A stretch of DNA of 52,075 bases, from assembly GCA_022706565.1 (NCBI GenBank), contig JAKJCH010000001.1:4064-56138 (forward strand). Direction: 5' to 3'. Both the position numbers and the translations under genes were made by a program. Source of the DNA: Bacillota bacterium (GTDB taxonomy: Bacteria > Bacillota > Syntrophomonadia > Syntrophomonadales > Syntrophomonadaceae). The notes below the pieces were generated by a model. It did not search any database. It saw nothing but the letters and a program-made list of their open reading frames with translations, and was not told the origin of the DNA. The stretch's first letter is position 1. The number at the start of each line of letters is the position of its first letter. Below, piece after piece: positions 2,257-11,254 of this stretch.

Positions 2257-4350
2257 ATGAAGATTAGAGAGATTATGACCATTGATCCGATCTGTCTTCG
2301 TCCTGATCAGACAGTGGGAGAGGCAGCCATCATTTTTATGGAGCATAAGATCGATGGCGCCCCGGTGGTGAATGGGAACCGTGAATTAATCGGCCTATTC
2401 ACAAAGACTCACATATATCGGGTAGTAAACGGAGACCGGGATTTTGATCGTCCGGTGGCGCAGATGATGAGCACCGACCTGCTCGTCGGACATCCGGATG
2501 ATGAATTCGGTGATGTAGTCAATGCGACGGTGCCACGTCTACCGGTGGTTGATGACCGGGGTCGGGTCGTGGGTATTTGTACCCGCGGGGACATCGCCAA
2601 AGCCTTCTTTGATTCGTATCAGAATATCTCGCTGGAATTGGACGCCATTATCAATTCAGCCCATAATGTTATCGTATCGATTGACCACAATGGCTTTATA
2701 AAGGTTTGGAATGCAGCTGCGGAGAGAATCCTGGGCTCTAAAGCCTCCGAGGTCAGTGGGCGTCATATCCAAGATGTCCTGCCCGAGAGCGACCTTACCC
2801 GCGTTATAGATATCGGTACAGCTGAACCCCTGAAAAGGATCAGTTTGAGGGGCCATCAATTTTTGTCCAATCGTTCTCCTATTATTAAGGAAGGAGAAAT
2901 TGTCGGGGCGGTGGCGGTGCTCCTGGACGTATCTGAATTGGAGAGTGTTTCAAGGGAGTTGGAACGCTTCAAGGAACTCAACCGGGAGTTGGATGCGATT
3001 ATTGACTCCTCTTTTGATGGTTTATATATTACCGACGGAAATGGTATCACCCTTCGCCTCAATAAGGCTTATGAAAGGATCACCGGCATCAGCGCCGATG
3101 AATTCATTGGCAAAAATGTGACCACTATTGAGTCTGAGGGAATCGTCTCGGAATCAGTTACAGCGTTGGTACTGGAGAAGCGCAGTCCGGTGACCATCAG
3201 CCAGGAGATGCGTACCGGTAAAATGACTTTGGCTACCGGCAACCCGGTTTTCGATGATAAGGGCAACATCTTCCGGGTGGTTAGCAACGTCCGTGATATC
3301 ACCGAACTCAATGCTTTGAGACAAAAACTGGAAGAGTTTGAAGGCCTGAGCCAGCACTATGAATCGCAGCTGCGCACTCTGAAATTGCAATACGTTGGTT
3401 CAGACAATATTGTGACCAATTCTAGTCGCATGATTACTCTGCTATCCACGGTGATCAGGCTGGCTCAGTTTGATTCCACCATTTTGATTACGGGTGAATC
3501 TGGTACCGGTAAGGAATTGATTGCCGAGGTAATTCACAACAACAGCAGCCGCCGGGACCAACCCTTTATAAAAGTCAATTGCGGGGCAATTCCTGAGACA
3601 CTGCTGGAATCGGAACTATTCGGTTATGATTATGGTGCTTTCACGGGTGCCAAGAAAGAAGGCAAACCGGGTTATTTTCAGTTGGCGGCGGGAGGAACAC
3701 TGTTTCTGGATGAGATCGGCGATCTGCCCTTAAATCTGCAGGTTAAACTGTTGCGGGTACTGCAGAACAAGGAGTTCGTCCGCGTCGGCGGCACCAAACC
3801 CCTGCAAGTTGATGCCAGAATCGTGACGGGCACCAATCGCAATCTGCTGGAGCTGGTGGAGAAAAAACTGTTTAGGGAGGACCTTTACTACCGCCTTAAT
3901 GTGGTCCCCATCAATGTCCCCCCTTTGCGGGACAGGATCGAGGATATTCCTCCCCTGGTTGCTCATTTCACCAAGTTGTACAACCGCAAACACAAGCTCA
4001 ACCGCAGGTTTGCCCCCGAAGTAGTAGATGTTTTTATGGGTTATAATTGGCCTGGCAACGTGCGAGAGTTGGAAAACCTTATAGAAAGATTGATAGTTGT
4101 AGGTACCAAAGATCTTCTGACCATCGACGACCTGCCAGCATTTTTGGTAAACTCCGGTCCAGTAAATCCTGAGGTAACGGTCTCCGGTATCATACCCCTG
4201 CAAGATGCAGTGGAGAATGTAGAGAAGCAGATCCTCGAGAAGGCTTATCAACAATACCGCACCACCCGGCAAATGGCTGCAGTGCTTAAGGTGGACGCAT
4301 CGACTGTGGTTAGAAAAGCAGCCAAATATGGTATATCACATACCAAATAA
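2257..4350 (+). CDS. Sigma-54-dependent activator with CBS pair and two PAS domains
   Basis: Bacterial enhancer-binding protein of 697 residues. Order of parts: two CBS motifs (about 1-120; REIMTIDPICLRPDQTVGEA begins the first), PAS (about 122-235), second PAS (about 236-355), AAA+ sigma-54 interaction domain (about 382-620), Fis-type helix-turn-helix (about 650-690). Visible motifs are Walker A GESGTGKE at 413-420, the sigma-54 contact loop GAFTGA at 460-465, Walker B LFLDEIGDL at 482-490, and NWPGNVREL. All parts needed for sigma-54 activation are intact. CBS pairs commonly bind adenine nucleotides, and PAS domains bind small ligands, so it probably senses a metabolite or energy state. It sits directly upstream of palindromes, a sigma-54 promoter and beta-oxidation genes, which are its likely targets. 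The ribosome site (AAGGTGG) is far from the ATG. Confidence 0.92.
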   Translation: MKIREIMTIDPICLRPDQTVGEAAIIFMEHKIDGAPVVNGNRELIGLFTKTHIYRVVNGDRDFDRPVAQMMSTDLLVGHPDDEFGDVVNATVPRLPVVDDRGRVVGICTRGDIAKAFFDSYQNISLELDAIINSAHNVIVSIDHNGFIKVWNAAAERILGSKASEVSGRHIQDVLPESDLTRVIDIGTAEPLKRISLRGHQFLSNRSPIIKEGEIVGAVAVLLDVSELESVSRELERFKELNRELDAIIDSSFDGLYITDGNGITLRLNKAYERITGISADEFIGKNVTTIESEGIVSESVTALVLEKRSPVTISQEMRTGKMTLATGNPVFDDKGNIFRVVSNVRDITELNALRQKLEEFEGLSQHYESQLRTLKLQYVGSDNIVTNSSRMITLLSTVIRLAQFDSTILITGESGTGKELIAEVIHNNSSRRDQPFIKVNCGAIPETLLESELFGYDYGAFTGAKKEGKPGYFQLAAGGTLFLDEIGDLPLNLQVKLLRVLQNKEFVRVGGTKPLQVDARIVTGTNRNLLELVEKKLFREDLYYRLNVVPINVPPLRDRIEDIPPLVAHFTKLYNRKHKLNRRFAPEVVDVFMGYNWPGNVRELENLIERLIVVGTKDLLTIDDLPAFLVNSGPVNPEVTVSGIIPLQDAVENVEKQILEKAYQQYRTTRQMAAVLKVDASTVVRKAAKYGISHTK

Positions 4351-4375
4351 CAAGAAATAAGGATTCAAATACTTG

Positions 4376-4395
4376 TTGATGCATCAATGCAACTT
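4376..4395 (+). promoter_or_regulatory. Candidate activator site 1
   Basis: TTGATGCA-TCAA-TGCAACTT. It fits the consensus TTGATGCA-N4-TGCAACAA, an imperfect palindrome with TGCA half-cores. The centre lies about 317 bases upstream of the predicted sigma-54 start. Binding by the adjacent activator is inferred. Confidence 0.5.
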
Positions 4396-4396
4396 A

Positions 4397-4416
4397 CCGT
4401 TGCACTGGTGCATCGT
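4397..4416 (-). promoter_or_regulatory. Candidate activator site 2 (inverted)
   Basis: On the minus strand this reads CGATGCA-CCAG-TGCAACGG. It is a second copy of the motif in opposite orientation, its centre about 22 bases from site 1, that is about two helical turns. Confidence 0.45.
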
Positions 4417-4420
4417 TTTT

Positions 4421-4440
4421 TAGATGCATAAACGCAACGC
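4421..4440 (+). promoter_or_regulatory. Candidate activator site 3
   Basis: TAGATGCA-TAAA-CGCAACGC. A weaker third copy, its centre about 24 bases after site 2, so sites 1-3 could lie on one face of the helix. Confidence 0.4.
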
Positions 4441-4676
4441 GAGAAACCAAGAAAGATCCCCGCCTTTTCAATAGGGAACTTCCAATACTGGTCTTGTGCA
4501 AGTCGTTACATGAGACAACCTGTCGTAATGTTGGGGAGTATTCATTCCTTGTTCAAGGCCACATAGGAACCTTGATGCACCGATGCAACAAAATGTTAGG
4601 GGACGGGGCCACCCGCATCCCCCTTTTAAAACCCAATCGCCGCGGCTTGGGGGCATTTTAGAATTATACCTGATTA
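4441..4676. other. Enhancer-to-promoter spacer without a gene
   Basis: Apart from candidate site 4 I see no gene, hairpin terminator or sigma-A promoter here. A 62-codon minus-strand frame at 4468-4656 has no recognisable content. The region is best explained as DNA looped between the distant activator sites and the sigma-54 promoter. Confidence 0.45.
4572..4591 (+). promoter_or_regulatory. Candidate activator site 4 (best copy)
   Basis: TTGATGCA-CCGA-TGCAACAA is the most symmetrical copy; only the base beside each TGCA core breaks the dyad. Its centre is about 121 bases upstream of the predicted sigma-54 start, the usual distance for an enhancer-binding-protein site. Confidence 0.55.
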
Positions 4677-4692
4677 TGGCATGATACTTGCT
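4677..4692 (+). promoter_or_regulatory. Sigma-54 promoter for the Com-like gene and probably the beta-oxidation operon
   Basis: TGGCATGATACTTGCT matches the -24/-12 consensus TGGCACG-N4-TTGCW at all but one position; GG and GC are separated by exactly ten bases. Transcription should start near 4703. The gene upstream encodes a sigma-54 activator with an intact GAFTGA loop, which supports the assignment. Confidence 0.85.
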
Positions 4693-4746
4693 TAGTAAAT
4701 ATAGAAGATACGCGATGAGTTGTCGGGAGATCAGGGGTTAAGGGGA

Positions 4747-4929
4747 GTGATTTTTATTATTCTAAAGGATTTCCGGTGCCACAAATGCCAAAAGCTTTTA
4801 GGGAAGTACTTGGAATGCCGGCAGTTAGAAATCAAGTGCCCGCGCTGCGGGGCACAGAATAGTCTGCGTGACACAGCTGTATTTACGAAAATAATTAAGG
4901 ATTCACTTACCGCCGTCAGTTCGATTTAA
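4747..4929 (+). CDS. Com-like small zinc-ribbon protein
   Basis: A protein of about 60 residues containing FRCHKCQKLLGKYLE followed by EIKCPRCGAQNSL: two Cys-x2-Cys pairs in the arrangement of phage Mu Com (RCKNCNKLL ... EIRCPRC). Mu Com binds a stem-loop in the mom mRNA and allows its translation. The start is unclear: a GTG at 4747 sits too close to AGGGGA, a TTG at 4720 lacks a good site, and an ATT at 4756 would have ideal spacing and would give an N-terminus about as short as that of Mu Com. It is the first gene after the sigma-54 promoter and is followed by a terminator and then the thiolase operon. The family match is clear; a regulatory role here is inferred from position. Confidence 0.75.
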   Translation: MIFIILKDFRCHKCQKLLGKYLECRQLEIKCPRCGAQNSLRDTAVFTKIIKDSLTAVSSI

Positions 4930-4982
4930 TTGGAATCAACCCAACTACATATCGCTTTATAGTATCTGTTAGAGAGCCTTTG

Positions 4983-5020
4983 AGCCCCGCCAGACAAATA
5001 CGTCTGCGGGGTTGTTTTTA
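4983..5020 (+). terminator. Terminator or attenuator before the thiolase operon
   Basis: CCCCGC-C-AGAC pairs with GTCTGCGGGG with one bulged C and a loop of about six bases, followed by GTTTTTA. It is a convincing intrinsic terminator between the Com-like gene and the beta-oxidation genes. Sigma-54 transcripts must read through it to reach thiolase unless a second promoter is used. Confidence 0.8.
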
Positions 5021-5031
5021 TCTTCAATAAT

Positions 5032-5109
5032 AAGGAGGTGAATTGTTCCAGTCACGGTAGGACTCTAGTATTTTTAGCAGTCAATGAACGATTTAAGGAG
5101 GATGAGAGA
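5032..5109 (+). promoter_or_regulatory. Thiolase leader with two Shine-Dalgarno sequences
   Basis: An AAGGAGG at 5032 has no in-frame start at proper spacing for thiolase; the only start behind it, TTG at 5043, ends after five codons. A second AAGGAGG at 5095 serves the thiolase ATG at 5110. Between them TTGTTC (5043-5048) and TAGTAT (5066-5071), 17 apart, could be a weak sigma-A promoter that would make thiolase partly independent of the upstream terminator. All of this is tentative. Confidence 0.35.
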
Positions 5110-6465
5110 ATGTCGGATTTTGTACAGAAACTTGATATGAAGAGGGCGGATTATCCGAAGACTGTGCCTGTTACCGGATTTGGCGAGAGGAAGCCTGATT
5201 ACAAAGGTATGGGCCGCAAACTGGACAACCCCTATGCCAAACTACGGGAAGTCGTGTGTGTTGCCGCAGCTCGTACCCCTTATGGTGTATTGGGCGGCAA
5301 GCTTAAAGAATATGATGCACCCCAGCTGGGCGCTCTGGCCATCAAGGAAGTTATGCGCCGGGTAGAGGGCAAGGTCAAAGGCGAAGATGTGGACTACGTG
5401 TACATGGGCGAAGTCGTCCCCGCCGGCGTAGGCCAAGTCCCCAGCCGCCAAGCCACCCTTTTGGCAGGTTTGCCGGAGTCGGTTCCTTCCATCACTATCA
5501 ACAAAGTCTGTTCCTCCGGTTTAAAAACCGTTGACCTGGGCGTACAGCTGATCAAAGTCGGCCGGGCCGATATCGTTATCGCCGGCGGTATGGAAAGCAT
5601 GACCAACTGCCCCTATTCGCTGCCCGATGAAAGATTTGGCGGCCGGATGGGATTACCTAATGGACGGCTGGTAGACTTGATGGTCTATGATGGCCTGTGG
5701 GATGCCTTCTATAACCGTCACATGGCTATACATGGTTCGGAAGTATCTGACGAATTTGGCATCACCCGGGAAGACATGGATTGGTGGGCATACCTTTCCC
5801 AAACTAGGGCTGTGGATGCAATGGAAAATGGCCGCCTCGACGACGAGATATTCCCGGTTGAAATCAAGAAGGGCAAAGAAATCATGGCCAAGGACGAAGG
5901 CCCTCGCCCCGGCACCACCATCGAAGCCCTTGCCAAGCTTCCTCCGGTATTCAATCACAAGAGCCCTGTAACCGGCGGCCCGGGCAGCGTTACAGCAGGT
6001 AATGCTCCGGGTGTCAACGATGGAGGCAGCGCAGTCATGCTCATGAGCCGTGAAAAGGCGGATGAGTTAGGATTGAAGCCGCTTTTCACCATCGTAGACT
6101 ATGCCGAGGTATCCCAACAGACCAAGGATATAGCTACCGTTCCCGGCCTCTCCATCAAGAAGGTACTGGAACAGAACGGCCTTACTGCTGATGATATCAA
6201 GCTGGTGGAAGCCAACGAGGCCTTCGCAGCCGTGGTTCTGGTCAGCTGTATGAAGATCGTAGGCATGAGCAAGGAAGACATGATCAACAAGGTCAATGTC
6301 AACGGATCCGCTATAGCCTATGGACACCCGATCGGTTCTTCCGGGGCTCGGATCCTGATGACCCTCGGCTACGAATTAAAACGCCGCGGCGGCGGGTACG
6401 GCGTATGTGGAATCTGCTCCGGCCACGCTCAAGGCGATTCTATGCTGATATATGTTGAGCCATAA
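5110..6465 (+). CDS. Acetyl-CoA C-acetyltransferase (thiolase) with N-terminal extension
   Basis: Cleaves acetoacetyl-CoA (or longer 3-ketoacyl-CoA) with CoA to acetyl-CoA in the last step of beta-oxidation. Chosen start ATG 5110 with AAGGAGG gives 451 residues; an in-frame GTG at 5038 is unsupported. Visible are NKVCSSG (nucleophile C134), NEAFA (369-373), GHPIGSSG (H406) and the second cysteine C436. Two oddities: the catalytic core begins only at about residue 46 (REVVCVAAARTP), so there is a charged N-terminal extension absent from the usual 390-residue enzymes; and the canonical C-x-GGG-x-G segment reads CSGHAQG. It is followed by the dehydrogenase after 45 bases, which makes degradation of 3-ketoacyl-CoA the likely direction. 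Confidence 0.92.
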   Translation: MSDFVQKLDMKRADYPKTVPVTGFGERKPDYKGMGRKLDNPYAKLREVVCVAAARTPYGVLGGKLKEYDAPQLGALAIKEVMRRVEGKVKGEDVDYVYMGEVVPAGVGQVPSRQATLLAGLPESVPSITINKVCSSGLKTVDLGVQLIKVGRADIVIAGGMESMTNCPYSLPDERFGGRMGLPNGRLVDLMVYDGLWDAFYNRHMAIHGSEVSDEFGITREDMDWWAYLSQTRAVDAMENGRLDDEIFPVEIKKGKEIMAKDEGPRPGTTIEALAKLPPVFNHKSPVTGGPGSVTAGNAPGVNDGGSAVMLMSREKADELGLKPLFTIVDYAEVSQQTKDIATVPGLSIKKVLEQNGLTADDIKLVEANEAFAAVVLVSCMKIVGMSKEDMINKVNVNGSAIAYGHPIGSSGARILMTLGYELKRRGGGYGVCGICSGHAQGDSMLIYVEP

Positions 6466-6510
6466 AACACCGATTCGATAACATCAAATCATTGTGAGGA
6501 GGAAGGAAAT

Positions 6511-7365
6511 ATGGAAATCAAAAAGGTAATGGTCATCGGTGCGGGCCAGATGGGCGGGGGCATAGCTCAAGTTTCAGCCCAGGCTGGTTTTGAGACTGTT
6601 CAATATGACATCAACATGGAATTGGTCGACAAGGGCATTGCTCTCATCAAAAAGAACCTGGGCCGTGATGTTGAAAAAGGCAAACGCACCCAGGAAGATA
6701 TGGATGCCATTCTAGCCAGGATCAAACCCTCGGTCAGTCTGGAAGATGCCGCTGACTGCGACCTGATCGTAGAAGCCATTGTCGAAAACTTCGATATCAA
6801 GAAAAAGGTGTTTGAGGAATTGGACCGGATCGCTCCTCCCCATGCGATTCTGGCCAGCAATACATCCTCCCTGCCTATTACCCAGATAGCGGCCTGCACC
6901 AAACGCCCCGGTCAGGTAATCGGTATGCACTTCATGAATCCAGTTCCAGTAATGAAACTGGTGGAAGTAATCCGCGGACTGGCTACCACCGATGATGTCT
7001 ATAACACCATCGAGGAAGCCTCCATCAAGATGGGCAAAACCCCGGTTTGGTGTAAGGACGTTCCTGGCTTCATCTCCAACCGCGTTCTGCAGGTGATGAT
7101 CAACGAGGCGCTGTGGGAGCTCTATGAAGGTGTTGCTCCAGCCGAGAATATCGACAATATCATGAAGCTGGGCATGAACCATCCCATGGGTCCCTGTGCA
7201 CTGGCCGACCTCATTGGATTGGATACCGTGCTAGCGATTCTCAATGTAATGTACACCGGCTATGGTGATCCCAAATACCGTCCCTCCCCTCTCCTGAAGC
7301 AATATGTGCAAGCCGGATGGCTGGGACGCAAAACCGGCAAGGGTATATTCGACTACAGCAAATAG
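6511..7365 (+). CDS. hbd: 3-hydroxybutyryl-CoA dehydrogenase
   Basis: Oxidises 3-hydroxybutyryl-CoA to acetoacetyl-CoA with NAD. The 284-residue protein has the Rossmann motif GAGQMGGGIAQ at 10-20, the catalytic HFMNPVP with H140, and the C-terminal helical domain (NRVLQVMINEALWELYEGV, GPCALADLIGLD). Length and motifs match the short clostridial Hbd family. GAGGAGGAAGG precedes the ATG. It lies between thiolase and crotonase in a tightly spaced operon; in a syntrophic context it would feed NADH to hydrogen or formate formation, which is inference. Confidence 0.95.
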   Translation: MEIKKVMVIGAGQMGGGIAQVSAQAGFETVQYDINMELVDKGIALIKKNLGRDVEKGKRTQEDMDAILARIKPSVSLEDAADCDLIVEAIVENFDIKKKVFEELDRIAPPHAILASNTSSLPITQIAACTKRPGQVIGMHFMNPVPVMKLVEVIRGLATTDDVYNTIEEASIKMGKTPVWCKDVPGFISNRVLQVMINEALWELYEGVAPAENIDNIMKLGMNHPMGPCALADLIGLDTVLAILNVMYTGYGDPKYRPSPLLKQYVQAGWLGRKTGKGIFDYSK

Positions 7366-7398
7366 GTCCATGAAGTCTAGGCCAAGGGAGGGATAGAA

Positions 7399-8181
7399 AT
7401 GGAATTCGCCAATGTGTTGCTGGATAAGATCGACAACATCGCTATTCTGACCATCAACCGCCCCAAGGCGCTAAACGCACTAAATAGGGACACTTTGTTG
7501 GACATTAAAGCGGCGGTCGAGGTTTTCCGGGATGATCCGCAAGCTGATGTGATGATAATCAAAGGCGCCGGCGACAAATCGTTTGTCGCCGGGGCGGACA
7601 TAACCTATATGCTGAATATCAACGCCATGCAGGCCAGGGAATTTGGCTTGTTGGGTCAGAGTGTCTTCTCACTGATCGAAACCATCGAGAAACCAGTAAT
7701 AGCTGCCATCAATGGTTTTGCCCTCGGCGGCGGGTGTGAATTGGCTATGGCCTGTGATTTCCGCATCTGCTCCGACAAGAGTAAATTCGGCCAACCCGAG
7801 GTGGGACTGGGAGTTACCCCCGGCTTCGGCGGTACCCAGCGCCTGCCACGACTGGTGGGCACGGGAATGGCCAAACAACTTCTGTACAGCGCTGACATAA
7901 TTGAAGCCGATGAAGCACTGCGAATCGGTTTGGTCAACGCGGTAGTCGAAGCCGACGCCCTGATGGATTATGTTATGAAACTGGCTCAACGGATCGCCTC
8001 CAAGGGGCAAATTTCGGTACGTCTGTGTAAAGTGGCGGTTAACGAGGGTATGCAAGCCGACATTAACCGGGCGATGACCATAGAAGCTGATGTTTTTGGT
8101 CTCTGTTTCGCTACGGATGATCAAAAGGAAGGCATGAGCGCCTTCGTAGAAAAACGCAAAGCCACATTTACCGGTAAATAG
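7399..8181 (+). CDS. crt: Enoyl-CoA hydratase (crotonase)
   Basis: Hydrates crotonyl-CoA to 3-hydroxybutyryl-CoA. The 260 residues show SFVAGADI (CoA-binding and oxyanion region), GGGCELAMACD with E114, and FGQPEVGLGVTPGFGGTQRL with E134; both catalytic glutamates of the hydratase family are in place, which argues for hydratase rather than isomerase or other crotonase-fold activity. AGGGAGGG precedes the ATG. It is separated from the acyl-CoA dehydrogenase gene by only 18 bases. Confidence 0.95.
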   Translation: MEFANVLLDKIDNIAILTINRPKALNALNRDTLLDIKAAVEVFRDDPQADVMIIKGAGDKSFVAGADITYMLNINAMQAREFGLLGQSVFSLIETIEKPVIAAINGFALGGGCELAMACDFRICSDKSKFGQPEVGLGVTPGFGGTQRLPRLVGTGMAKQLLYSADIIEADEALRIGLVNAVVEADALMDYVMKLAQRIASKGQISVRLCKVAVNEGMQADINRAMTIEADVFGLCFATDDQKEGMSAFVEKRKATFTGK

Positions 8182-8199
8182 AAAGGAGCTGGAAAATAG

Positions 8200-9348
8200 A
8201 TGGATTTTAGTTTAAGTGAAGAGTCATTAATGATGCGGGATATGTTCCGCAAGTTTTCCAAGAACGAGGTAGAACCGCTGGCTGCGGAAATCGACCGCAC
8301 CCATCGATTCCCGATGGAAACCTTCCAGAAAATGGCTGGACTTGGCCTGTGCGGTCTTCCCATTCCTGAAGAATGGGGCGGAGCCGGGGCTACTTATCTG
8401 GACTTCGCCATATTTGTGGAAGAGTTGGCCAAATGCTGCGCTTCCACAGCAGTTATTATGAGCGTTCACACTGGTCTGGGCTGCATGAGCACTTGGCTCT
8501 ATGGCGGCCAGCGGGTCAAGGAAAAATATCTTAGAGCTTTGGCCTCCGGAGAGATCGTAGGAGCCTATGCGTTAACCGAACCCAATGCCGGTTCCGATGC
8601 TGCCTCCATCAAATGCAAAGCCGAGGACAAGGGAGACTATTTCCTGGTCAATGGCAGTAAAATATTTATAACCAATGGCGGAATCGCCACCACCTATTGC
8701 ACTTTCGTCAAGACCGATCCCACTCAGGGACCTGGTAAAGGAATAACCTGCCTGCAGATCGAGAAGGACACCCCCGGTTTCACTATGAGCAAACCAGTCC
8801 AAAAGATGGGCATGAACGGCTCACCCACTGTCGAACTCTATTTCGAAGATGTCAAAGTACCCAAAGAAAACATGCTCGGCGTTCAAAACGACGGGTTCCA
8901 GGTGGCCATGGGCCTCCTTGCCGGTGGACGGATCACTATAGCCGCCCAGGGATTAGGCATCGGAGAAGGGGCTCTGGAGTTCACCAACCAGTACATCAAA
9001 GAAAGACAACAATTCGGCAAACCTTTGGCAGCCAATCAAGGGGTTCAGTTTATGGTGGCTGATATGGCCACTGCCCTGGATGCGGCTCAGCTGTTGGTAT
9101 ATCGGGCTGCCTGGCTGAAGGACAACAAGTTGCCTCACAACAAAGAGGCATCCATGGCCAAGAAGTTTGCCACAGACACCAGCATGGAAGTTTGCACCAA
9201 TTGCGTGCAGTTGATGGGCGGTTACGGTTACTGCAACGAGTTCCCGATTGAGCGCATGATGCGCGACGTCAAGATCACCCAGATTTACGAGGGTTCCAAC
9301 CAGATCCAACGCATGATTATCGGTCGTGAAGTAATCGGCAAATGGTAA
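8200..9348 (+). CDS. Short-chain acyl-CoA dehydrogenase (butyryl-CoA dehydrogenase type)
   Basis: FAD enzyme oxidising butyryl-CoA to crotonyl-CoA. The 382-residue protein shows AYALTEPNAGSDA and FITNGG (FAD and substrate binding), the C-terminal helical domain with RQQFGKPLAANQGVQFMVAD, and IYEGSNQIQRM with the catalytic base E364, all diagnostic. Length is normal. No etfA or etfB gene lies in the window, so its electron carrier must be encoded elsewhere. AAGGAGC lies 12 bases before the ATG. Specificity for C4 rather than longer substrates cannot be fixed from sequence alone; the name bcd is therefore not assigned. Confidence 0.93.
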   Translation: MDFSLSEESLMMRDMFRKFSKNEVEPLAAEIDRTHRFPMETFQKMAGLGLCGLPIPEEWGGAGATYLDFAIFVEELAKCCASTAVIMSVHTGLGCMSTWLYGGQRVKEKYLRALASGEIVGAYALTEPNAGSDAASIKCKAEDKGDYFLVNGSKIFITNGGIATTYCTFVKTDPTQGPGKGITCLQIEKDTPGFTMSKPVQKMGMNGSPTVELYFEDVKVPKENMLGVQNDGFQVAMGLLAGGRITIAAQGLGIGEGALEFTNQYIKERQQFGKPLAANQGVQFMVADMATALDAAQLLVYRAAWLKDNKLPHNKEASMAKKFATDTSMEVCTNCVQLMGGYGYCNEFPIERMMRDVKITQIYEGSNQIQRMIIGREVIGKW

Positions 9349-9472
9349 TCAGATTCCAACAGTCTCGAGTCAGCGATTTTCACCCGGGAGATCGAACCCA
9401 GAACGAGGTCCTAAGTTGTTATCCAACACGAACTTCAGGTAGACCCCCAAAAATAATGGAGGAGGTAGATCA

Positions 9473-10450
9473 ATGGGTAAGATTAACAAGATAACCCTAA
9501 AAGAAGCTGCCGGGCTAATCAAAGACGGCGACATGCTGTCGTTCAGCGGCTTCACAATTTGGCGCCGCCCGATGGCTCTGATCTATGAATTGGTGCGTCA
9601 GGGTAAAAAGGATCTGCACTTGTTTGAAGTCAACGGTGGTACTCATACCGAGATACTGGCAGGCGCAGGCTGTGTGAAAATCTGGGAATCCTGCTGGGTA
9701 GGACACGAACTCTATGGTAAATTAGGTGAATCCGTAGCCCGGGGACAGGTTGAAGGTTCTATTCTAGTTGAAGATTACTCCCATGCCCAGTGTGTTGCCC
9801 GACTACTGGCTGGCGCTTATGGTCTTCCCTTCTTCCCCACCGCTTTGTCCATGGGTACCGATATACTGAATCCCAAGTTCGACATGCTCGGCAAAGCCGG
9901 CCTGCGGGATGGCTCTAATCCCAAAATACCGTTGAAAAAATACGACACTATACCTGACCCCATGTACGATATGGGCAATATCCTGCTGATGCCAGCCGCC
10001 AATCCCGATTGGGCTTTAGTATACGCCCAACAGGTTGGGGACGAGGGCACTGTCCGGGTTCTGGCCCAAACTTATGTGGATCTGGAAGTTATAAAGGCAG
10101 CCAAGAAGGTTATCGTCATCGCTGAAGAGATCGTCCCGGACAGCTACTTGAGAGATGAGCCTGCGCTGAACATTGCTCCTGGTTACGCCATCGATTACGT
10201 CATCGAACAGCCATTCGGTGCACATCCTACTGGCTCCCAGTTCTTCTATGACGTCGATGCCGATTTTATCAGAGCTTTCTATCAGGCTTCCAAGAGTGCC
10301 GACGGGTACAAGAAATTTGCCGATGAGTGGATCTTTGGGGTGGATGGATTTGATGAATACCTGGAAAAACTAGGGGTAAATCGGCTCCTGAAACTGAAAG
10401 CCAATAGTGTCATGGGCTATTCGACTACTATGAAAAGGGGGACGAGGTAG
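9473..10450 (+). CDS. CoA-transferase subunit A, glutaconate CoA-transferase family
   Basis: Class I CoA-transferase alpha subunit, 325 residues, close to the 320 of GctA. The N-terminus KINKITLKEAAGLIKDGDML and the FSGFTIWRRPMALIYELVRQ segment are typical of the family, which differs from the shorter acetate/acetoacetate (AtoD) type. It ends in TAG directly abutting the ATG of subunit B, so the two are translationally coupled. GGAGGAGGT lies before its ATG. Position behind thl-hbd-crt-acyl-CoA dehydrogenase suggests that it activates the fatty acid by taking CoA from acetyl-CoA; substrate is inferred, and a dicarboxylic or branched acid is also possible. Confidence 0.88.
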   Translation: MGKINKITLKEAAGLIKDGDMLSFSGFTIWRRPMALIYELVRQGKKDLHLFEVNGGTHTEILAGAGCVKIWESCWVGHELYGKLGESVARGQVEGSILVEDYSHAQCVARLLAGAYGLPFFPTALSMGTDILNPKFDMLGKAGLRDGSNPKIPLKKYDTIPDPMYDMGNILLMPAANPDWALVYAQQVGDEGTVRVLAQTYVDLEVIKAAKKVIVIAEEIVPDSYLRDEPALNIAPGYAIDYVIEQPFGAHPTGSQFFYDVDADFIRAFYQASKSADGYKKFADEWIFGVDGFDEYLEKLGVNRLLKLKANSVMGYSTTMKRGTR

Positions 10451-11254
10451 ATGACTGCAAAAAACTATGCGGAAAACTACAAAGGCGCTGATTTGCTAGC
10501 AGTAGCTGCGGCCAGAGAAGTGCAGGACGGTGACATCGTTTTCGCCGGCACCGGTCTGCCCATGCTGGCCATAGCATTGGCCCAGATTACCAACGCCCCC
10601 AATGCAGTGTGTATATACGAAGCCGGCAGCATTGACGGCAGGCCCAAAGACCTGCCCGCTTCGGTAGGTGACGCCCGCTGCGCTACCCAATCATCAGTTG
10701 CTGCTGGTCTGACCGAAGCATTCTACGGCCAGCTCCACAGCGGTTATGTAGATCTGGCCTTCCTGGGCGGAGCCGAGATCGACAAGTATGGTAATGTCAA
10801 TACTACTGTGGTGGGAGATTATGCAGCTCCTAAGAAACGTTTCACCGGCAGCGGCGGCAATCCTGATATCAACTCTTTTGCTAGAAGAACCGTCTTCATC
10901 ATGGTTCAGGAAAAACGCCGCTTTAAGGAGCATGTGGATTACATCACCTCTCCTGGCTGGCGTATTCCTGAATGGCCCTCTGGAGAGATGAAATCCAAGA
11001 AGGAAGTATACGGAAAGTTTTTCAATGGCGGGCTCTCAGCGGTTATCACCAATATGGCAGTGTTCCGCTTCGACGAAGACGGGATTATGTACCTGGATAC
11101 GGTTCATCCCGGATTTACTCCCGAGCAGGTAAAGGAAAACTGCGAATTCGATCTGAACATCTCCAGGTGCAGAGGTGTGACTGAAAGGCCAACCGTTGAA
11201 GAAATTGAGCTTCTGTATAAGGTGGTCGATAAAGACGGTATATTCCTTCCCTAA
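10451..11254 (+). CDS. CoA-transferase subunit B, glutaconate CoA-transferase family
   Basis: Beta subunit, 267 residues, the same size as GctB. It carries the conserved VFAGTGLPMLAIALAQ segment, CIYEAGSIDG with E57 as the probable catalytic glutamate that forms the enzyme-CoA thioester, and DLAFLGGAEIDKYGNVNTT, a family hallmark. The assignment of E57 rests on alignment from memory with the GctB glutamate. It starts immediately after the subunit A stop codon and is the last gene of the tightly packed part; a strong terminator follows about 105 bases later. Confidence 0.88.
   Translation: MTAKNYAENYKGADLLAVAAAREVQDGDIVFAGTGLPMLAIALAQITNAPNAVCIYEAGSIDGRPKDLPASVGDARCATQSSVAAGLTEAFYGQLHSGYVDLAFLGGAEIDKYGNVNTTVVGDYAAPKKRFTGSGGNPDINSFARRTVFIMVQEKRRFKEHVDYITSPGWRIPEWPSGEMKSKKEVYGKFFNGGLSAVITNMAVFRFDEDGIMYLDTVHPGFTPEQVKENCEFDLNISRCRGVTERPTVEEIELLYKVVDKDGIFLP

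Follow-up and report, generated by a model that had tools for sequence, protein, structure and literature searches.

The window, by which we mean the whole 52-kb stretch of DNA analysed here, belongs to a 1.77-Mb genome that is 88% complete, and the loci closest to it lie in MAGs named Syntrophomonas and Syntrophomonadaceae. The gene at 2257..4350 (plus strand) encodes a 697-aa activator with the domain order CBS-CBS-PAS-PAS-AAA+(sigma-54)-HTH, as assigned by Pfam (PF00571, PF00989/PF13426, PF00158, and PF18024). Its AAA+ sigma-54 domain matches PF00158 with E = 1.8e-69, the GAFTGA loop is present in the translation as GYDYGAFTGAKK, and the C-terminal Fis/TyrR-type HTH matches PF18024 (HTH_50) with E = 2.6e-10. 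By sequence, the sole sensible solved relative of this HTH is the TyrR homologue 1g2h (E = 0.01). The recognition helix reads VDASTVVRKAAKYG, and its first residue, Ala681, is the specificity residue; the helix also begins at Ala681 in an AlphaFold model of low confidence (mean pLDDT 62, about 76 in the HTH).

The operon downstream (5110-11254) has the features of a butyrate β-oxidation operon. Its first enzyme gene encodes a thiolase (5110..6465, plus strand; Pfam PF00108/PF02803), and ORFs assigned by homology to 3-hydroxybutyryl-CoA dehydrogenase, crotonase, acyl-CoA dehydrogenase, and CoA-transferase A and B occupy 6511..11254 on the same strand. A consensus match to a sigma-54 promoter, TGGCATGATACTTGCT, lies at 4677..4692 (plus strand), with the -24 GG at 4678-4679 and the -12 GC at 4690-4691, and it fits the Clostridiales sigma-54 consensus given in PMC6615313. 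The genome carries rpoN, the gene for sigma-54 (PF04552, E = 8.2e-62).

Between the activator gene and the operon, the original prediction placed four copies of a 20-base palindrome, and all four were recovered there, within 216 bases. Copy 1 (TTGATGCATCAATGCAACTT, 4376..4395, plus strand) is centred 293 bp upstream of the -24 GG. Copy 2 is inverted and reads ACGATGCACCAGTGCAACGG on the minus strand (4397..4416; 272 bp upstream), copy 3 (TAGATGCATAAACGCAACGC, 4421..4440, plus strand) lies 248 bp upstream, and the promoter-proximal copy 4 (TTGATGCACCGATGCAACAA, 4572..4591, plus strand) lies 97 bp upstream, a common position in the orthologs. As had been proposed, copy 4 is the most symmetrical, with 7/8 positions versus 5, 6, and 4 in the other copies, and the nearest to the promoter (97 bp versus 248-293 bp for copies 1-3). 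The TGCA-N4-TGCA core, said to be common to all four, is exact in 3/4 copies, but the right half of copy 3 reads CGCA. Likewise, the spacing of two helical turns described for copies 1-3 comes, from centre to centre, to 21 bp (about 2.0 turns) and 24 bp (about 2.3 turns). The distance from copy 3 to copy 4 is 151 bp.

The TGCA-N4-TGCA core occurs four times in the window, three of these among the copies, whereas shuffled sequences contain it 0.99 times on average and 0/100 shuffles reach four; chance similarity is therefore not a sufficient account of the copies. Across the 1.77-Mb genome, GATGCA-N4-TGCAAC has three exact matches, all inside the 216-base stretch, so the motif is not equally frequent at random genomic places, an outcome that had been named in advance as counting against a binding site. 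GATGCANNNNTGCAAC is found without mismatch in the whole genome only as copies 1, 2, and 4, and copy 3, with one mismatch, is among the few such places genome-wide. Exact GTTGCANNNNTGCAAC occurs at nine sites in 61 genomes, and at least five of the nine lie next to a CBS-PAS activator; its reversed control was found in one genome of the 61.

Protein searches of 61 genomes yielded about 60 loci with related activators, a further 60 came from across the phylum, and the neighbourhoods of all were fetched. The genomes compared are drafts, and most counts are inflated by kinship. The order EBP (enhancer-binding protein), UAS, sigma-54 promoter, and thl-hbd-crt-acad-ctf is kept in most of about 18 orthologous activator loci, with the promoter in the same place, and the motif TTGTTGCA-N4-TGCAACAA recurs between the orthologous activators and the sigma-54 promoter of the β-oxidation operon. 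Counting only independent regions where thiolase follows the activator, and leaving out the window and two 86% relatives, we found a site with at least 13/16 matches to TTGWTGCA-N4-TGCAWCAA in 13/18 EBP-to-thiolase regions. In the same 18 regions, 400 palindromes with permuted half-sites matched a mean of 0.285 regions and a maximum of four. For 25 Ala-type regions, each truncated at the sigma-54 promoter, an EM search without any prior returned gTGTTGCA-N4-nGCAACag as its top motif. The other outcome named as adverse, absence of the motif upstream of orthologous operons, was thus not what the comparison gave. A weight matrix was trained on 25 orthologous loci, with neither the window nor its two closest relatives among them. 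Of all positions in the 52-kb window, the four copies take its top four ranks (copy 4 first, followed by copies 1, 3, and 2); the consensus for its training sites was derived from the originally predicted motif, and only the EM run was free of that motif.

Conservation has limits. In the orthologs L067 and L068 (71% identity) the best sites score only 12/16, beyond the order the exact motif is rare, and distant activators of 40-50% identity call for a relaxed, class-specific test. In an Ala-type clade with the helix VDASTISRKA (L089, L091, L092, L094, L096, L123, L191), no symmetric site can be recognised nearby. Activators with the helix VDAST[IV]SRKA (L089, L092, L094, L096, L123), and those with IDPST or IDSST (L111, L113, L115, L116, L085), have no such symmetric palindrome beside the gene, and the operators of these sub-clades must differ or lie elsewhere.

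The proximal site is positioned with some regularity. In 15 loci it lies 74, 84-90, 95-99, or 109-110 bp from the -24 GG, and the nearest site is usually about 84-110 bp upstream, in near-helical steps. These positions are phased, with a best period of 11-12 bp (p = 0.0024 versus a uniform distribution, kinship ignored).

We scored the identity of one motif base on symmetric G-X-TGC-N6-GCA-X'-C sites within 450 bp on either side of the activator gene. Among 129 relatives, the base at X in TTG-X-TGC goes with the residue that opens the recognition helix: T accompanies Ala, A accompanies Gln, and G accompanies His. The association was first seen with exact motifs in the relatives, where Ala was found with GTTGC sites at 18/37 loci and with GATGC sites at 0/37, and Gln with GATGC sites at 6/11. 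Over all loci, X was T in 62 cases and G in one for Ala; A in 33, T in five, and C in two for Gln; and G in all six for His. The counts expected from the remaining loci were roughly 0.1 to 3 of each. The out-of-sample phylum set gave seven T for Ala; 18 A, four T, and two C for Gln; and five G for His, with a Fisher p of 0.0002 for the Ala/Gln contrast. Since the letters of the motif change with the helix of the adjacent activator, the motif appears tied to that protein. On a tree built without the HTH, the Ala/Gln change amounts to essentially a single event, and the two to three origins of His were all accompanied by G. Because these phylogenetic events are few, the apparent one-residue code Ala-T, Gln-A, His-G is suggestive, not proven.

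Two extensions of this code were rejected: that it had switched independently many times, which the tree contradicts, and that it covers TyrR, whose specificity residue is His even though X is T. Among the distant activators, L219 (Gln, TTGATGCACATGTGCATCAA), L240 (His, ATGGTGCATTATTGCACCAT), and L222 (His, GTGGTGCAAAGATGCACCGA) have class-specific sites that are nearly perfect and precede a sigma-54 promoter by 71-82 bp.

Copies 1 and 2 invite a different account. The original prediction held that no gene explains the palindromes, which overlooked that these two copies plus a T6 run form a terminator-like hairpin (4378..4421, plus strand) just 3' of the activator stop codon. The predicted folding energy of GATGCAtcaaTGCAAC-ttacc-GTTGCActggTGCATC is about -22 kcal/mol, and L065 and L066 show a similar arrangement. 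The two copies could accordingly be only the terminator arms of the activator gene, their likeness to copies 3 and 4 being secondary. We consider this very unlikely. Copies 3 and 4 would be left unexplained; terminators keep no letters, yet GTTGC/GCAAC is conserved across more than 12 genera; and the letters vary with the recognition helix. Many orthologs, moreover, carry distal sites with no T-run or have a separate terminator hairpin of their own (L067, L107, L110). As these relatives outside the clade keep the sites without the hairpin, the hairpin appears to be an added use and not the reason for the motif. Both functions are likely to hold, so termination competes with a UAS only as the sole explanation, and in this clade copies 1 and 2 probably also terminate the activator gene. 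The window copies are hybrids, with GATGCA in one half and GCAAC in the other (A versus T), though the activator residue is Ala. Such hybrid half-sites are confined mainly to the clade of the window and its two nearest relatives (L065, L066) and are perhaps connected with the use of copies 1 and 2 in termination.

That the palindromes serve another regulator as operators, be it a repressor or a global factor, is suggested by their geometry, which is generic for dimeric HTH proteins. The sites, however, accompany this activator family, their letters follow its helix residue both in and out of sample, they lie at enhancer distance from sigma-54 promoters and not over promoters, and exact sites occur nowhere else in this genome, all of which makes another regulator extremely improbable. 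Several similar palindromes in a non-coding stretch can also represent dispersed repeats, such as REP or mobile palindromes, or the resemblance could be fortuitous; with exact sites confined to one locus in the genome and rare in the relatives, with position and gene context conserved over divergent genera, and given the permutation control, this is scarcely credible.

We are thus left, with high confidence, with the reading that the four palindromes are UAS of the adjacent CBS-PAS sigma-54 activator and drive the butyrate β-oxidation operon. The sequence-level hallmarks of an EBP and its UAS are all present: an AAA+ domain with GAFTGA, an HTH, a sigma-54 promoter together with rpoN, and dyad-symmetric sites at about 80-250 bp upstream that are conserved at orthologs. 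The sites are very probably UAS of a sigma-54 enhancer-binding protein. What the compared sequences show directly is the sites themselves, how they are conserved, where they lie, and how they covary with the recognition helix. The proposal of a binding site of CBS-PAS activators accordingly gains support from genomic uniqueness, ortholog conservation, and helix covariation.

By analogy with what is established for this class, including binding, looping, ring formation, and ATP-driven activation, the activator would bind through its TyrR/Fis-type HTH, one dimer per palindrome. Protein bound at copy 4 (97 bp upstream) and at copies 1-3 (about 250-290 bp) would together nucleate the AAA+ ring, and DNA looping would bring this ring to the sigma-54 RNA polymerase at TGGCATGATACTTGCT. 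ATP hydrolysis would then open the promoter of the com-like/thiolase/hbd/crt/acyl-CoA dehydrogenase/CoA-transferase operon. The trigger would be signals sensed by the CBS and PAS domains of the activator.

The TyrR box is TGTAAA-N6-TTTACA, with an outer TGT-N12-ACA frame. The present system resembles TyrR in this outer frame and in an HTH of the PF18024 type, but has inner TGC where the TyrR box has AAA. NtrC sites are TGCACC-N5-GGTGCA; like the present sites they are enhancer palindromes built with TGCA words, while the spacing, the half-site order, and the HTH subfamily differ. According to PMC6615313, Clostridiales EBPs with a Fis-type HTH have several palindromic UAS 100-250 bp upstream of a sigma-54 promoter, the activator gene is usually adjacent, and TGT-N10..12-ACA is shared by 15/39 groups. 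TTGTTGCA-N4-TGCAACAA likewise contains TGT-N12-ACA, and the target in a Clostridiales example there is a related butyrate-pathway operon. The best copy in the window has this frame in one half only, its left half reading TGA. Unlike the UAS described there, the sites here have a strong TGC-N6-GCA inner core and belong to CBS-PAS activators of probable butyrate-oxidising syntrophs; the words 'syntroph' and 'thiolase' are absent from the main text of PMC6615313. The site had been called so far undescribed. In the main texts searched, the exact motif was indeed not found, and neither a description of these sites nor one of a chromosomal leader with Com came up, but the TGT-N12-ACA geometry is known from PMC6615313. 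The searched literature also held nothing on how syntrophic butyrate oxidisers turn on the β-oxidation operon.

The operon leader holds a second set of features. A Com-like zinc-ribbon ORF (4747..4929, plus strand; about 60 aa, start codon uncertain) is conserved between the promoter and thiolase in the orthologs; matches to the Com family PF10122 have E = 3e-9, the value for this ORF, and 4.5e-10. Downstream lies the element GAGAGCC-TTT-GAGCCCC (4972..4988, plus strand), found de novo, followed by a terminator-like hairpin with a T-run, CCCCGCCAGAC...GTCTGCGGGG (4983..5019, plus strand), whose 5' arm, by folding and alignment, is the second half of the element. The de novo search identified this leader motif, not the UAS, as the strongest conserved intergenic element: the uncut EBP-to-thiolase regions gave the leader and the com ORF. 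GAGAGCC-N2-4-GAGCCCC precedes the terminator-like hairpin; its distance from the thiolase match is usually no more than about 115-180 bp, and it often occurs in two copies that flank the small ORF. It is present in 23/61 relatives, with one hit for the reversed pattern, and PF10122 in 22/61. The element occurs in 22/22 genomes with Com versus 1/39 of the others (hypergeometric 1e-15, kinship ignored); in 300 phylum genomes outside this group it is about as rare as the reversed control. A leader with a Com-like ORF and elements overlapping hairpins was observed in the window (4747-5019) and in L125, L131, L141, L142, L147, L149, and L272.

The SELEX consensus of a Com zinc finger is GAGNNCC(N)2-3GAGNNCC (PMC6483171). 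Both halves of the element, GAG-AG-CC and GAG-CC-CC, fit this consensus, which was consulted after motif discovery. In folds of 39 relatives, nearly every copy of the element contributes its second half to the terminator as the 5' arm. Of 25 aligned copies, 24 retain the lower stem CCCC/GGGG, and the upper stem varies with pairing kept in single folds. RNAalifold credits two-sided changes at only one pair, since the columns of the upper stems cannot be brought into register. In searches of this region, nothing at 4340-5200 came near the gathering score of any Rfam family, and no tRNA or tmRNA was found in the leader.

In phage Mu, Com melts an inhibitory stem that adjoins its site (PMC6483171). 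By analogy, Com binding would compete with the terminator in this leader, and the terminator, with a Com-type RNA site in its 5' arm, would form a second probable control point for transcripts, possibly a chromosomal Com antitermination system. The PF10122 zinc ribbon and the GAGNNCC-N2-3-GAGNNCC RNA motif are shared with Mu-type Com and mom (PMC6483171). The differences are that the operon here is chromosomal and metabolic, and that the motif overlaps a terminator stem and not the translation-inhibition stem of mom.

Taken together, many syntrophic Firmicutes might place this operon under double control, by a CBS-PAS activator reading TTG-X-TGCA-N4-TGCA-X'-CAA through the Ala-T/Gln-A/His-G code, and by a Com-type peptide that binds the leader GAGNNCC-N2-4-GAGNNCC and prevents the overlapping terminator; for this combined scheme we judge the case to be evenly poised. 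The helix code and the Com leader are its less expected parts, the UAS frame being already known. Activation of the β-oxidation operon is a bottleneck step of methanogenic degradation, and an activator, sites, a promoter, and a putative second, RNA-level switch can now be named for it. With a residue-to-base rule, one could predict the operators of a large activator family from the sequences of its proteins. The Com family is known from phage Mu, and a functional Com leader would extend its reach to everyday bacterial metabolism; double control, if true, would make a chromosomal relative of the Mu translational activator an antiterminator of central catabolism.

The element is also seen apart from this operon. 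In L126 and L127 (at 1500, genomes G008 and G030), it stands with no terminator in the leader before another gene, where its CCCC lies opposite the downstream G-rich stretch GAGGGGGGG, resembling Mu-style translational masking; both genomes carry com elsewhere. In L139 (genome G001), the element and a perfect terminator stem, CCCCGCGAGAA/TTCTCGCGGGG, precede a CoA-transferase operon, and the Com gene of that genome is on another contig, which makes this leader a candidate Com target in trans.
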